A stretch of 64,000 bases of DNA, taken from NCBI RefSeq assembly GCF_000526195.1, contig NZ_JAFP01000001.1:372001-436000 (forward strand), given 5' to 3'. Shown here piece after piece: positions 41,375 through 47,240 of this stretch (position 1 is the first letter of the stretch; each line of letters starts with the position of its first letter). Position numbers and translations under genes: made by a program. The stretch comes from Hippea sp. KM1 (GTDB taxonomy: Bacteria; Campylobacterota_A; Desulfurellia; Desulfurellales; Hippeaceae). The notes beneath the pieces are model-generated. The model did no database searches and was not told the DNA's origin. It saw nothing but the letters and a program-made list of their open reading frames with translations.

Positions 41375-41401
41375 CCTCCACCTCCTTAAATCTTTTGTCG
41401 A

Positions 41402-41433
41402 ATAATACTATTTAAATATTACAAAAAGATTAC
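41402..41433 (-). promoter_or_regulatory. Promoter and regulator box of the 67-aa/degP operon
   Basis: Minus strand: the box (41414-41433) contains GTAATCTTTTTGTAAT, two GTAAT half-sites 11 bp apart, followed after six bases by the -10-like TATTAT (41402-41407). No good -35 hexamer is present; the box overlaps its position, as at activator-dependent OmpR-family promoters. A 17/20 match lies at 49331-49350 in front of the response-regulator gene. Confidence 0.6.
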
Positions 41434-41497
41434 AGGTTGTTATTTATCTGTGGATGTTGATGTTTTTTAATTTATCTGCCCGGCTTTTTGCTATTTG

Positions 41498-41527
41498 TTG
41501 ATTTTTCAAGGCTCCTGTGTTTATAAT
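41498..41527 (+). promoter_or_regulatory. Promoter of the monooxygenase-fold gene
   Basis: TTGATT at 41498-41503, 18-bp spacer, perfect TATAAT at 41522-41527. Transcription would start near 41534, giving a leader of about 20 bases with a strong AGGAGG site before ATG 41553. Confidence 0.65.
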
Positions 41528-41552
41528 GCAACAAAGTTTTTTAGGAGGGGTT

Positions 41553-41864
41553 ATGATAGCTCGAATCTGGCATGGAAGGACGAGGGTTGATGATTTTGAG
41601 AGGTATTCTGATTTTTTAATAGAAAGAGCAATTCCGGATTATAAAAACACTGAGGGTTTTATTAAGCTTGTTTTTTTGAGAAAAAAGACAGAAAAGGAAG
41701 CGCATTTTACATTGATTACCTTCTGGAAGGATATCGATGCCATTAAAAAATTTGCAGGCGAGGATTACGAAAAGGCAAAGTATTATGAAGAGGATAGGAA
41801 GTTTCTGCTGGAATTTGAGGAAAATGTTGAGCACTATGATGTTTTTGCAGAGGAGTATGCATAA
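41553..41864 (+). CDS. Antibiotic-biosynthesis-monooxygenase (ABM) fold protein
   Basis: Small dimeric ferredoxin-like fold protein of 103 residues. Features of the ABM family: MIARIWHGRTRVDDFERYSD at the N-terminus, a central LVFLRKKTEKEAHFTLITFW strand pair, and a C-terminal EENVEHYDVFAEEY. Family members include quinol monooxygenases and haem-degrading proteins; many are uncharacterised. TAGGAGG before ATG 41553 selects this start over the frame opening at 41517. It has its own promoter and stands alone. The function is not assignable. Confidence 0.75.
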   Translation: MIARIWHGRTRVDDFERYSDFLIERAIPDYKNTEGFIKLVFLRKKTEKEAHFTLITFWKDIDAIKKFAGEDYEKAKYYEEDRKFLLEFEENVEHYDVFAEEYA

Positions 41865-42021
41865 GAAGCTTGGCAGTATCACTTAGAAGGCTTAAGTCCT
41901 GCAAGGGTTAAAAGACTTGGCTTTTGATTTTGGTTTTTTTGTTTCTTTCAAGGTTATATTGTCACTTGATGATACCGAAAATATTACCATTAATCATAAT
42001 TTGAGGTTTACACAAATAGGA
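41865..42021. other. Intergenic spacer, nothing clear
   Basis: 157 bp between two convergent genes. Bases 41894-41925 contain AAGTC and GACTT arms that could form a weak five-bp hairpin followed by T-rich DNA, a possible terminator for the ABM gene. A reading frame of about 45 codons without a start (…LSLDDTENITINHNLRFTQI) runs to the TAG at 42036 but resembles nothing recognised. Confidence 0.3.
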
Positions 42022-44334
42022 TCACTTAAAGTCTAGGTATTCCCAATCTTCTGGTTTTTCTCTGAATGAAAAATATTCTTTTTTGCTATTGATTCTAAAG
42101 TGTTGCCCTTCTTTAATTATCAAGCCACCAAAAAGGTTCTTTCCTTTTTTATTTTCTTCTTCTATGTATCTTTGTAATGCTTCTGCTTTAAGTTTATTAT
42201 TTTCTTCTCTATTACCACTTGCTTTTGTATCGAATATTCCCAATCTACCATCTTTAAGCATAACCAAAAAATCTGGCTGGAATGTGGAAAAATTACCGTA
42301 TTTAATTCCAAAATTACTTTTCATGTGTTCATTTCCATTCTGCCACCACCAAAGAATTTTATCTTCTTTTTGCTCTAAAAGCTCTACAAATTCTTTCTCA
42401 ATAGTACTATCAAAATTCAAATAAACCTTTTTATTGGTCGGGGAAACATAAAGAGAAAGTTTATAATCAAATGGCTTATAAATGTAGGGATTGTAATTTC
42501 TTGTTTCTTCTATTTCCCATTCATCATTCCATTCTTCCAATTCCTCCATCTTCTTTTTATTTTCTTTTTCTTTAATTGGTTTGTATTCTCTTATAGCTTT
42601 ATCAAATAATTTAGAAAAGATATCTGCGTTATTTAAAATTATATTTTCAATATAAATAGCACCATTATTTAAACGATAATTAATGTTTAGGTATTTTTTA
42701 AACCATCTCCATAGAGCATATTTAAAAGTAGGGATAGACCTTTTAGGAGCAAAACCACCAAGGTTCACTTTTATTAAATGTTCAAAAATATGGTGAAGAT
42801 CTTCTTGTGATAAATGAGCTTTAATTGTTTGTTCTGAAGTTATTTTGCTTTCAGTTAATTGATCAAAAAATTTAGTGTCTAATTCTTTATTTAAAATAAT
42901 TTCATCTTGGTTTTCTAATCCTTCTATATTTATTTTGTTCTTTAGTTTTTCTTTATTCTTATTATAAAATTCTAAACTGTTTTTCTCTATGTCAAAAAAT
43001 TCACAGAAAACATCTTCTAATACTTCATAAAATGAAGATGTTATATCTCCAAAATCAACTCTATGTCTATAATAAGACCTTAATTTTAATGGTTTATAAA
43101 TCTCTTTTCTCTTAACAAATATTGATTTTATTATATTTGGGTTATAAGTTTCTTTTTTAACTTCTATGCTTTTTACATTTGTATAAACATAACCTTTATT
43201 TAAGATTTCATTCTTATAATGTCTTGCCTCAGGCATTCTTAAAATTCTACCAACTGTTTGAATTTCAAAGACTATACTTCTAATTTCTCTGAATCTAACC
43301 AAGATTTGAGCTCTTGGACAATCCCAACCAGTATCGATAGCCTGTTTAAAGATTAAAAATTCAACTTCACTTTCATTAGGAGTTACTAATTCTTTTTCAT
43401 TATTAACTTTCTCTTCACTTAACCATACTGCTAATTTGTGATTATCATAAGATATATCTTTTGATGCTAAAAAGTTTTCAACAAAAGCCTTTTTATCTTC
43501 TCCTGCTTCGCTTGTGGGTAATTGAATTAGAACTAAAGGATTTACTTTTACTCCTTCTTGTTCATACAATTGTTTTAGTTGTAATCTTTTTTTATAAGCA
43601 GCTTCTAAAATCAATTCTTGAGAAGTTATTTCATCATCATTTATTTGATCAATATTTTCATTAATTATAATTTCTTTTTTTATCATGCCTTCTTCAATAA
43701 CATCGTTAGGCTGAACAACTACTTTTTCGTTATATTCTCCTTCTCTTAACACCGGTGTTGCACTCATTTCTATTGTTAAATCTGGTTGAATGATTTCATC
43801 TCTTAATTCTTTAGCTCTTTCACTTGTAGCATTTGAGTGGCTTTCATCAATAACCATAATTATTGTTTTTCCTTCTTCTCTCGTATTTCTAATAACTTCC
43901 CTAAAACTCCACTTTTCACTATCTTTCATTAAAATATTTTTCCATTCTCCTGTTTGTCTATCTTTTGTTCTTAATTTCTCCCAATTAACAACAACTACTT
44001 CATTTTTATCTATTGAATCTTTAGAACCAAAATATTCTTGCTCTAACAGATGAACTTCTGGAAAACCTTGAAATTCTTTCTTTAAAGAATCATAAGATTG
44101 AATATGCAAATTTCCTTTTCCTATACTAATCCATAAAAAAACTAAATCTTTATCTTCTAATTCATCAATAATCTGTTCAATATATTTTGACAACATAAAA
44201 GTCTTTCCACTACCTGTTGGAGCTTGAAAAACAATTGTTCTTTTGTCTATGTTTTTATCAAAAAGAAGTTTTGCTTTAAGAATAAGCTCTTCTACTGCCT
44301 TTTCTTGATATCTTTTTAATTCTTTGATTGCCAT
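42022..44334 (-). CDS. Type III restriction-like helicase-nuclease (Res)
   Basis: 770-residue SF2 translocase and nuclease, the restriction subunit of a type III-like system. Walker A FQAPTGSGKT lies near residues 36-45, VIDESHSN near 180, MSATPVLREGEYN near 214 and motif VI QTVGRILRMPEARHY near 370. The C-terminal PD-(D/E)XK nuclease is visible as TIEKEFVELL, FQPDFLVML and LGIFDTKASG near residues 655-715. It is somewhat shorter than EcoP1I/EcoP15I Res. It is the last gene of a four-gene minus-strand operon and starts 10 bp after the preceding one. Base use is strongly AT-rich compared with flanking genes, pointing to acquisition. Confidence 0.88.
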   Translation of the reverse strand: MAIKELKRYQEKAVEELILKAKLLFDKNIDKRTIVFQAPTGSGKTFMLSKYIEQIIDELEDKDLVFLWISIGKGNLHIQSYDSLKKEFQGFPEVHLLEQEYFGSKDSIDKNEVVVVNWEKLRTKDRQTGEWKNILMKDSEKWSFREVIRNTREEGKTIIMVIDESHSNATSERAKELRDEIIQPDLTIEMSATPVLREGEYNEKVVVQPNDVIEEGMIKKEIIINENIDQINDDEITSQELILEAAYKKRLQLKQLYEQEGVKVNPLVLIQLPTSEAGEDKKAFVENFLASKDISYDNHKLAVWLSEEKVNNEKELVTPNESEVEFLIFKQAIDTGWDCPRAQILVRFREIRSIVFEIQTVGRILRMPEARHYKNEILNKGYVYTNVKSIEVKKETYNPNIIKSIFVKRKEIYKPLKLRSYYRHRVDFGDITSSFYEVLEDVFCEFFDIEKNSLEFYNKNKEKLKNKINIEGLENQDEIILNKELDTKFFDQLTESKITSEQTIKAHLSQEDLHHIFEHLIKVNLGGFAPKRSIPTFKYALWRWFKKYLNINYRLNNGAIYIENIILNNADIFSKLFDKAIREYKPIKEKENKKKMEELEEWNDEWEIEETRNYNPYIYKPFDYKLSLYVSPTNKKVYLNFDSTIEKEFVELLEQKEDKILWWWQNGNEHMKSNFGIKYGNFSTFQPDFLVMLKDGRLGIFDTKASGNREENNKLKAEALQRYIEEENKKGKNLFGGLIIKEGQHFRINSKKEYFSFREKPEDWEYLDFK

Positions 44335-44344
44335 TTTATCACCT

Positions 44345-45097
44345 TTAAATATTGAATTTATCTATTAGTGATTGAATATGTTTATAAAAATTTTTTACTT
44401 GTTCTAAATTATATTCATCATATTCGCCGCGTGAAGCATGGTTTCCTATTGCCAAATAAGTTTGATTTTCTTGCCATTCTACTTGTGATAAAACATTTTG
44501 AGCTTTTAAAATATCATTTAAGCTTGATATTTTTATTTCCTTTCCTTTTTCATTCAAAATATTTATTTGATTTAATTGGGCAATTTTTTGTAAAAGTTTC
44601 TCTAAAACAACTCTTAGTATTTTTGCTCCTGTGTCTTTATCTTCATTCTCAAAAATCTGTTTCTTGGCTTTTTCTAAATCAATAAAAATTGTTTCTGCTT
44701 TGATTGGTATATTCATTTTAACTAATTGGTTATATACATCTAATATCTTTTGAGGTATGGGTTCTATTGTAAAATTTTCTAATTCTGAGAATAAGGATTT
44801 ATCTACCTTGTTATCAATAGCGAACATATAAATAATTTTTTTACCATTTAACTTCTTGAGTTCTTCTAAAAACTCGCTAAAGCTATCATCAATAAAATTA
44901 TAATAAATACATAAAAATCTGTCCTTTTTATTTGAAGAAAATATTTTATAATCTTCTTCTTCTTTTTCTAAATTATATATATTTTCTTTTACACAAAGCA
45001 TTTCTGTTGCTTTTTGTGTAAGATCTATTTTTACCTGATCTCTGTTTTTAGATTTTTTTATTAAAGAAGCTTTAAAGTATTGGAGGTTAAATTTCAT
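44345..45097 (-). CDS. Mod C-terminal-like protein with helical HEPN-like tail
   Basis: 250 residues. The first ~125 (NLQYFKASLIKKSKNRDQVK, LTQKATEMLCVKENIYNLEK, YKIFSSNKKDRFLCIYYN) resemble the C-terminal region normally fused to type III Mod methylases (pattern GNLKYFKTDF, then TxKATEMLCLKE). The remaining ~120 are helical (AKILRVVLEKLLQKIAQLNQ to YLAIGNHASRGEYDEYNLEQ) and recall DUF4145/HEPN-type domains. So this looks like the detached tail of Mod plus an extra domain. It follows the nuclease-like gene after 12 bp and precedes res by 10 bp. Both family assignments are from pattern memory; the first is fairly convincing, the second tentative. Confidence 0.65.
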   Translation of the reverse strand: MKFNLQYFKASLIKKSKNRDQVKIDLTQKATEMLCVKENIYNLEKEEEDYKIFSSNKKDRFLCIYYNFIDDSFSEFLEELKKLNGKKIIYMFAIDNKVDKSLFSELENFTIEPIPQKILDVYNQLVKMNIPIKAETIFIDLEKAKKQIFENEDKDTGAKILRVVLEKLLQKIAQLNQINILNEKGKEIKISSLNDILKAQNVLSQVEWQENQTYLAIGNHASRGEYDEYNLEQVKNFYKHIQSLIDKFNI

Positions 45098-45109
45098 CTT
45101 TTATTTTTC

Positions 45110-45709
45110 TTAGTCATTATTAATTTTAATAATTTTTTCTATTTTTTTACCCTTTTTTATTGGATATAAATAGTAATACCCTGAATTGCCATTCATTTTT
45201 AAATATTTTTTAACTCCCTTTTTTATAATGGTGCTAGATAACTCGAAACTAAAAAAATAAAAACAATTGAAGTTATCTCTATTTTTATATAAAGTTTGAA
45301 CAATAATATCTTTAATATTTTGGTCCAATAGTAAAGTAAAGTTGAAACTTTCTATAGCCTTTATTAGAGTGTATTCTCTATTCTTAGTTTTCATTGAGGA
45401 GGATTTTATGTCTATAGTTTCGTTGTTTATTTTAAAATCATATTTATCTACTTTATTATCATAATTTACAAAAAGTCTTTTTTTCTTGTTAGATAAATCG
45501 TAAACCAGGAAAGAAAATGCTTCTTCGGCCATTTTTCCTATAATTATATTTTTTTTGTGATTTTCATCATCCATTCCGGATCTTTTGTATGTGTTTTTTG
45601 CTGTTTCTTCCGCGAACTTTTTTATTTTCATTTTTAGATTATTATCATTTTCCTCAAAACATACTTCAAAAATTTCGTAATTATTTATTTTAATTTTTTT
45701 TACTTTCAT
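45110..45709 (-). CDS. Small PD-(D/E)XK-like protein embedded in the type III-like operon
   Basis: 199 residues, Lys/Asn/Ile-rich. A nuclease-like motif is visible: E62/E63 in KMAEEAFSFLVYD, then DKYDFKINNETIDIKSS with D91 and the D100-I-K102 pair, spaced as in PD-(D/E)XK enzymes. No other domain is recognised. Its first 20 bases overlap the end of the methylase gene and it ends 12 bp before the Mod-tail gene, so it sits precisely where an uninterrupted mod gene would continue. It may be a cognate endonuclease, a specificity protein or a passenger. Nuclease activity is inference from the motif. Confidence 0.6.
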   Translation of the reverse strand: MKVKKIKINNYEIFEVCFEENDNNLKMKIKKFAEETAKNTYKRSGMDDENHKKNIIIGKMAEEAFSFLVYDLSNKKKRLFVNYDNKVDKYDFKINNETIDIKSSSMKTKNREYTLIKAIESFNFTLLLDQNIKDIIVQTLYKNRDNFNCFYFFSFELSSTIIKKGVKKYLKMNGNSGYYYLYPIKKGKKIEKIIKINND

Positions 45710-47015
45710 GATCAGGTGCTCTCTTTTTGCTTAAAAGATTTTTTAATCTGCGATAACATATGTTTGAAAATATATTATTTTCATTTGTATTGCATAATAT
45801 AAATCTCCTGTTTCCGCCGTCTTCTTCATTTAATTTTAGAACAGCTTCTCCTGTAGTTCCTGAGCCTGCAAAAAAATCAAGAATTATAGAGTTTCTAGAG
45901 GAGTATAATTTTATTAGTCTCTTTATTAAATCAACAGGTTTAGCTGTGGGAAACCCAGGGTAACCTCCTTGATATTGTCCTAAAAAAGAAGGAACTTTCA
46001 GTGTTAGAAATCTTGAAATGCTTTGAAAGTAGAAATTGCCTAAAACAAACTTTACACCTAAATTATTTCTGTCTTTAACGTTTAGAATTACTCCTAAATA
46101 ACTTTCTGGTAAATTATTTTTCTTTAAAATTTTTTTGTAAAAATTTACGTATTTTTCAGATCCATGACCCTTTTGAAAAATTCTTTTTTGAAAGCGATGT
46201 TCCTTGAATGATCCTTGTTTGTATTTTCCGATAGTATATTCTGAAGGTGGGATTAGAATGATTTCTTTATTTTCTTCTTTTAAGATTTTATATTTTGATA
46301 TGTCTTTTTTTAGAAAAATACCTAATGGATAATTTTTTATTTTATCTTTTGCAATGAAATTATCGGTATTTTCTAAATCGATAAGCTCGTTTTTGGATTC
46401 AACTTCTTTATTCCCAGCAATTATAATATATTCATGACATATAGCCGAAGTTTTTGTAAGCTTATTTTGATTTAAAGGTGATTTTGAAAGCCATACTAAA
46501 GGTTCGCTTACAAAATTAAAAATTTTATTCAAAAGCAAGACTAAATTTGCAAGCTCATCTTCTCCTATAGAGCAAATTATTACACCGTTTTTGCTTAATA
46601 GCTCTTTTGCTAATTTTAGTCTTTTTTCCATAAAATTAAGCCACTTGCTATGCCTATAACTATCATTTTTGTCTACATATTTATCATTGTATTTCCATTC
46701 TTTTGCTTTTCCAGTATTGTAAGGAGGATCAATATAAATAACATCAATCTTTCCTTTATGAGTATAATTAAGAACAGTTAAAGCATGATAATTATCTCCT
46801 TCAATAAGAATATTATCCTCGCTATCATCAGTTTTTATCTCTTTTTCCTTAACTCTTTCTAATACAGGCAAATGATTTTTGCAATCTAAAACAACTTGTT
46901 CAGGTTCTCTTTCTGCATCCCAAACGAGTCCGTATTTTTTATTCTTTAGTTCTTGTTCTTGTCTTTCGATTATCTTTATAAGTTCCTCTTTTGTTAAACA
47001 ATCATACTTACTCAT
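45690..47015 (-). CDS. Type III-like DNA methyltransferase (Mod), N-terminal and catalytic part
   Basis: 441-residue beta-class methylase. An N-terminal helix (LTKEELIKIIERQEQELKNK) is followed by the Mod-typical LVWDAEREPEQVVLDCKNHL and ILIEGDNYHALTVLNYTHKG, catalytic DPPYNTG at 96-102, and SAM motif FAGSGTT at 382-388. Type III Mods normally run 150-250 residues further after NNENNICxxVCYPRLK; this one ends right after that point (NTNENNIFSNICYRRLKNLL). The missing tail is encoded two genes downstream. It is the first gene of the operon with a consensus-like promoter about 80 bp upstream. The DNA target is unknown. Confidence 0.87.
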   Translation of the reverse strand: MSKYDCLTKEELIKIIERQEQELKNKKYGLVWDAEREPEQVVLDCKNHLPVLERVKEKEIKTDDSEDNILIEGDNYHALTVLNYTHKGKIDVIYIDPPYNTGKAKEWKYNDKYVDKNDSYRHSKWLNFMEKRLKLAKELLSKNGVIICSIGEDELANLVLLLNKIFNFVSEPLVWLSKSPLNQNKLTKTSAICHEYIIIAGNKEVESKNELIDLENTDNFIAKDKIKNYPLGIFLKKDISKYKILKEENKEIILIPPSEYTIGKYKQGSFKEHRFQKRIFQKGHGSEKYVNFYKKILKKNNLPESYLGVILNVKDRNNLGVKFVLGNFYFQSISRFLTLKVPSFLGQYQGGYPGFPTAKPVDLIKRLIKLYSSRNSIILDFFAGSGTTGEAVLKLNEEDGGNRRFILCNTNENNIFSNICYRRLKNLLSKKRAPDHESKKN

Positions 47016-47101
47016 CTTTTCTTTTAAATATTTTTAAGTGCGTTGTTTTTTCCGGCCGAACCCAAACATAGACTTTAGTTTTTGTTTGCCTCGACTAAAA
47101 C

Positions 47102-47130
47102 TATTTTCAAGAAGTTTCCTGTTTTGTCAA
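47102..47130 (-). promoter_or_regulatory. Probable promoter of the type III-like operon
   Basis: Minus strand: TTGACA (47125-47130), 17-bp spacer, AAAATA (47102-47107). Transcription would begin near 47095, leaving an 80-base leader before the methylase ATG at 47015. The rest of the 225-bp gap (47016-47240) contains a CTTAAGACCTTAAG repeat near 47200-47216 and no gene. Confidence 0.5.
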
Positions 47131-47240
47131 GTTAAATCTTGAAGATTTCCAATTTTGCAATTTTTGCTTTAAAATTTCCCTGAAAAGCTAACCCCCTCGA
47201 TTTCTTAAGACCTTAAGACTTATTGGATAGGTTAAATATA

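Follow-up and report, generated by a model that had tools for sequence, protein, structure and literature searches.

The question raised by this locus is whether a type III restriction-modification (R-M) operon, in which the modification gene (mod) occurs as two open reading frames with another gene between them, is an organised system, a broken one, or a system whose methylase gene has become a gene in pieces. The operon lies on the minus strand of the window, i.e. the whole 64,000-nucleotide stretch of the Hippea sp. KM1 genome that was analysed. The host is a heat-loving bacterium, with a genome of 1.74 Mb in a single contig. According to the ORF list, the operon order is Mod-N (441 aa), a 199-aa protein, a 250-aa protein and Res (770 aa). 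The mod and 199-aa ORFs overlap by 20 bp, the remaining intergenic gaps are 12 and 10 bp, and all four ORFs are open, with no frameshift and no internal stop. A previous, sequence-only reading had placed four minus-strand ORFs here, overlapping or 10-12 bp apart, and the ORF list agrees. The features discussed below are the following:

41375..47240, no strand assigned: acquired island flanked by a small ORF linked to HtrA and by a histidine kinase gene, supported by GC content and comparison with congeners
45690..47015, minus strand: Mod-N, 441 aa, with N-terminal domain, beta-class methyltransferase core and target-recognition region, without the C-terminal domain
45110..45709, minus strand: 199-aa ORF in the mod linker, overlapping Mod-N by 20 bp; putative PD-(D/E)XK-type nuclease
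44345..45097, minus strand: the whole 250-aa ORF, Mod-C plus HEPN-like domain
44723..45097, minus strand: Mod-C, residues 1-125 of the 250-aa protein, a type III Mod C-terminal (Res-docking) domain as a protein of its own
44345..44722, minus strand: residues 126-250, a HEPN-like helical domain attached to Mod-C and not present in the intact relatives
44426..44449, minus strand: degenerate HEPN motif IGNHASRG, in which, by alignment, the catalytic R and H of RNxxxH are replaced by G and R
42022..44334, minus strand: Res, 770 aa, an SF2 helicase with its own C-terminal PD...DTK nuclease motif

The operon has a beta-class Mod, a Res composed of an SF2 helicase and a PD-(D/E)XK nuclease, and the mod-before-res order of type III systems. 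In Mod-N, motif IV (DPPYNTG) precedes motif I (FAGSGTT), which is the beta-class order, and the recognition region lies between the two. The protein matches Pfam N6_N4_Mtase (6e-36) and PADLOC MTase_III (1.5e-65), and its PDB matches include EcoP15I Mod, the Mod of 6k0w and Mbo45V. The translation of Res contains APTGSGKT, DESH, SATP and QTVGRILR in addition to the C-terminal PD...DTK; it matches Pfam ResIII (2.9e-16) and PADLOC REase_III, and is 48-55% identical to the Res proteins of the two nearest loci, designated L008 and L037. These matches and motifs bear out the earlier description of a type III-like operon ending in a Res helicase-nuclease. Type III systems also have a single-polypeptide Mod that includes the C-terminal domain (CTD); here the CTD sits in the separate 250-aa protein, and the operon is therefore classed as a type III variant. 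Further hallmarks of type III enzymes are a Mod2Res complex, methylation of one strand and cleavage that requires two inversely oriented sites.

The nature of the split was examined by comparison with intact relatives, all from Phycisphaerae metagenome-assembled genomes (MAGs), which belong to a phylum distant from the host. L037 encodes an intact 560-aa Mod followed by Res, and a second intact Mod, of about 600 aa, was found at locus L048. In pairwise alignment, residues 4-435 of Mod-N correspond to residues 5-430 of the L037 Mod (40% identity), and residues 1-125 of the 250-aa protein correspond to its residues 434-557, again with 40% identity, through the block EPIPQKILDVY. Mod-C is 42% identical to L008 and can also be aligned with the L048 Mod. 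Laid end to end, Mod-N and residues 1-125 cover the whole of both intact Mods, the linker is of nearly unchanged length and no conserved Mod block is lost at the break. By these alignments, the two pieces together amount to one whole Mod. Since both proteins align end to end with intact Mods and the linker lengths are nearly equal, the same comparison places the break in the variable linker that joins methyltransferase core and CTD. Mod-N ends with RRLKNLL followed by 13 tail residues; the ribosome-binding site at the start of the 250-aa gene is poor. In the overlap of Mod-N and the 199-aa ORF, just ahead of the Mod-N stop, a run of eight A residues is present (window 45694-45701, minus strand); a transcript with one A fewer would put both frames together, so transcriptional slippage could give a fusion of Mod-N with the 199-aa protein.

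The 250-aa protein had been described as the continuation of Mod. For residues 1-125 this holds, and matches of the protein to two Phycisphaerae loci (E 3e-28 and 1e-27), together with the L037 alignment, exclude the possibility that it is unrelated to Mod C-termini; residues 126-250, on the other hand, are HEPN-like. Because the intact Mods stop right after the EPIPQKILDVY block, this second half is an addition. Sequence relatives of residues 126-250 were found at L007, L038-L043 and L049-L052; these are separate proteins of roughly 225-255 aa from Phycisphaerae and Hymenobacter, in which the HEPN-like domain is C-terminal, and some of them have sub-threshold Pfam matches to RiboL-PSP-HEPN or DUF4145. 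In the structure model of residues 126-250, several helices are fairly confident (block means up to 96), and many of the top Foldseek matches are HEPN proteins (2q00, 7bxo, 2hsb), at E 0.04 or higher and none at 0.001. From these relatives and the Foldseek comparison of the model, the half is assigned a HEPN-like fold and not a Mod one. RNxxxH occurs in eight of ten Phycisphaerae relatives, and GNHASR stands at the same place in the window protein; the HEPN catalytic motif RX4-6H was not present in the 250-aa protein when it was aligned with its relatives. With RNxxxH lost, RNase activity of the domain is unlikely. A HEPN-like domain on a restriction subunit is unusual within the open-access literature searched.

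The 199-aa ORF is a real coding sequence as judged by its length, since none of 2000 Markov-shuffled copies retained an open run of at least 150 codons. Its earlier characterisation as PD-(D/E)XK-like stands in so far as GKMAEEAF ... KYDFKINNETIDIKSS fits the PD-(D/E)XK core when judged by eye; in addition there are two weak matches to PHROG families of unknown function (13389, E 7.6e-4; 14853, E 4.5e-4), and an AF2 model of the protein alone, with a pLDDT of 37, is uninformative. Pfam yielded nothing above its cut-off, NCBIfam and PADLOC gave no relative and PDB no significant one, and family and PDB searches gave no recognised homing-endonuclease relative. A PD-(D/E)XK nuclease identity is thus a lead, plausible from the motif but weakly supported. 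No relative of the gene was detected in 392 Planctomycetota genomes, in phages or in plasmids (nothing below E 1e-2).

Several other matches of the 199-aa protein were taken as chance, namely a phytase match below the Pfam cut-off and matches in E. coli plasmids (E 1e-2, 63 residues) that run antisense to an annotated gene. Weak Pfam matches to WD40 and AcrIC5 were likewise dismissed. Other ways of interrupting a gene were also considered. A group I or group II intron was ruled out, as no Rfam intron family was found; an intein was ruled out by the different frame of the 199-aa ORF and Mod-N and by stop codons at both ends. Read-through from the 199-aa into the 250-aa ORF, which share a frame, was ruled out by the two stop codons between them.

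The composition and surroundings of the operon were compared with those of related genomes. GC content is 22-30% within the operon against about 43% around it, and the operon genes themselves have a GC of 22-28% and a third-position GC of 0.17-0.23; for the HtrA and kinase/regulator genes on either side, these values are 0.41-0.45 and 0.49-0.55. HtrA and the histidine kinase are encoded by adjacent genes in five congeners, with the small ORF alone intervening in four of the five, and neither an R-M operon nor an intact fused mod is found at the corresponding site. Among 24 other genomes of the phylum, no relative of the Res, 199-aa or 250-aa proteins was found. The four-gene operon is a horizontally acquired AT-rich island, because its GC is low, the site is empty in congeners and the phylum holds no relatives of these three proteins. 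Within the acquired stretch there is also a 115-aa ORF (window 41517-41864, plus strand), which by eye is of the antibiotic-biosynthesis-monooxygenase type; it has an intermediate GC (0.356) and no counterpart at this site in congeners.

The sequence-only reading had called for the same four-gene order to be sought in other genomes. No second copy was recovered from whole-genome searches of two phyla or from a broader, insensitive contig scan, so that conservation by selection is unproven. The scan used two peptide patterns on genome contigs; it found L008 and missed L037, its sensitivity is thus low, and absence from it means little. At L008, the Mod CTD and the last conserved core block are in one frame with Res directly after, there is no HEPN part and no gene lies between. 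The contig end upstream of this CTD (L008:1-230) contains a stop and sequence unlike the Mod core, so truncation, rearrangement or misassembly may have affected this MAG copy. A tblastn search with the 250-aa protein gave nothing in phages, and plasmid matches had E 0.9 or worse; one of these, on a Hymenobacter plasmid, is a real HEPN-domain relative. No relative was found in viral contigs with the four proteins, a sub-region, two crafted alignments or a degenerate DNA motif. On an Acinetobacter johnsonii plasmid (L044:4761-6663), a type III-like Mod match extends across two annotated ORFs, a methyltransferase and a hypothetical protein, which could reflect a frameshift or another split Mod. 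This gene arrangement, represented by one genome and with a function that is proposed from sequence, was not found in the open-access literature searched.

The explanation preferred here, held about as firmly as it is doubted, is that a type III R-M system was made into genes in pieces when a small nuclease-like gene entered the mod linker, and that Mod-N methylates alone and the HEPN-tailed CTD docks Res in trans. Consistent with this, mod is continuous in L037 and L048 and interrupted here, with both halves open. The EcoP15I Mod has its methyltransferase domain at residues 390-516 and then a CTD at 539-644; it dimerises through the N-terminal and methyltransferase domains, and in the complex the CTD of ModA contacts Res, the other CTD being solvent-exposed (PMC4490356). 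The proposed course begins with a gene of 0.6 kb, encoding a small nuclease-like protein, which would have entered the linker that separates methyltransferase core and CTD. Mod-N, which has the N-terminal dimerisation, methyltransferase and recognition regions, would dimerise and methylate by itself, because in EcoP15I the N-terminal and methyltransferase domains, rather than the CTD, mediate dimerisation. The CTD, as a protein of its own, would bind Mod-N in trans and dock Res, as the ModA CTD does in EcoP15I, and restriction, not protection, would then depend on it. The HEPN domain may be a non-catalytic binding or dimerisation module, and the 199-aa nuclease a passenger or a homing-type element. 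Counting against this explanation, the HEPN fusion is not accounted for by simple insertion, the gene order is known from a single copy, the link to nucleases is weak and the 250-aa gene has its poor ribosome-binding site.

Two further explanations concern whether the whole operon still works. In one, the operon is an organised four-subunit type III variant, in which the split as well as the 199-aa nuclease is a working part: Mod-N would recognise and methylate, the HEPN-tailed CTD would act as an adaptor and the 199-aa protein would be a second or alternative nuclease working with Res. Such an organisation agrees with the tight gene packing including the overlap, with a break that spared every conserved block and with the addition of a HEPN domain, whose fold is frequent in defence systems; it is rather unlikely, as a nuclease motif is present in Res itself, the intact relatives manage with just two genes, and no 199-aa relative occurs in the other genomes of the phylum, in 392 Planctomycetota genomes, in plasmids (below E 1e-2) or in phages. 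A more specific form is unlikely: the type III enzyme would be a stable assembly of several subunits, its Res-docking domain would be a separate, HEPN-tailed adaptor on which it depends whether a methylase dimer turns into a restriction complex, and the 199-aa nuclease would serve as second effector. Were it true, protection and attack could be controlled separately. The earlier idea of three extra functional pieces has to be revised in any case, since two pieces are the halves of one Mod and the extra material is the 199-aa gene and the HEPN-like domain.

The opposite explanation is that mod lost its function through the insertion and that the pieces are decaying, with Mod-N perhaps still a solitary methylase. 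The single copy, the occurrence of intact Mods elsewhere and the weak start signal of the 250-aa gene fit such a history, which nevertheless appears doubtful: the four ORFs contain no frameshift or stop, the catalytic motifs of Mod and Res are retained, the CTD is still 40-42% identical to its relatives, and the extra domain was gained and is still open. Decay of res would also be expected if there were no full Mod. It was considered, too, that Mod-N and the 199-aa protein form a type II-like methylase/endonuclease pair, Mod-C and Res being left-overs. The 20 bp overlap between a methylase gene and a possible nuclease gene suggests this, and it is set against the best matches of Mod-N, which are type III Mods, the remainder of the same Mod next door and the weak nuclease identity of the 199-aa protein; such a pair is very improbable.

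A natural system in which the CTD exists as its own protein would let the coupling of methylation and restriction be tested by omitting one gene, and would show that type III Mods tolerate a break in this linker. Should the 199-aa gene encode a nuclease of the homing type, the locus would represent a defence gene in pieces in a bacterium, a situation known mainly from phage replication genes.

Compared with type III systems (EcoP15I, and L037 and L008 as the nearest), the operon has the same beta-class Mod, SF2 helicase-nuclease Res and mod-res order, with a sequence identity of 40-55% to L037 and L008; it differs in that Mod is two proteins, the 199-aa gene lies between them and a HEPN-like domain is attached to the C-terminal piece. 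That domain shares the helical fold and has sequence relatives among HEPN, RiboL-PSP-HEPN and DUF4145-like proteins, from which it differs in having lost the RX4-6H RNase motif and in being fused to a Mod CTD. Type III m4C systems with an additional helicase-like ATPase gene 5' of an intact mod have been described (PMC8259958); an extra gene is present in both cases, and here it interrupts mod. In H. pylori HP1369-HP1370, a phase-variable frameshift splits mod and abolishes methylation (PMC3936762). There, too, mod is in two ORFs with the break near the 3' end, whereas in the present operon a whole gene separates the halves, each of which has its own start.

A different kind of likeness is provided by mobE in Aeh1 nrdA and mobA in T4 gene 60, which split their host genes, the nrdA pieces giving an active enzyme; free-standing endonuclease genes often overlap the upstream ORF, by 11-24 bp in several cases and by 20 bp for segC (PMC2988022). 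The present locus differs from these phage examples in being a bacterial defence operon with a putative nuclease, for which homing, in which the uninterrupted allele is cut and the gene is copied into it, is suggested by analogy, in having its break in a linker instead of a critical region, and in having gained a domain as well. It resembles them in having a small nuclease-like gene inside a coding region whose halves are open, in the lack of an intron or intein and in the overlap with the upstream half, which at 20 bp is the same as that of segC.
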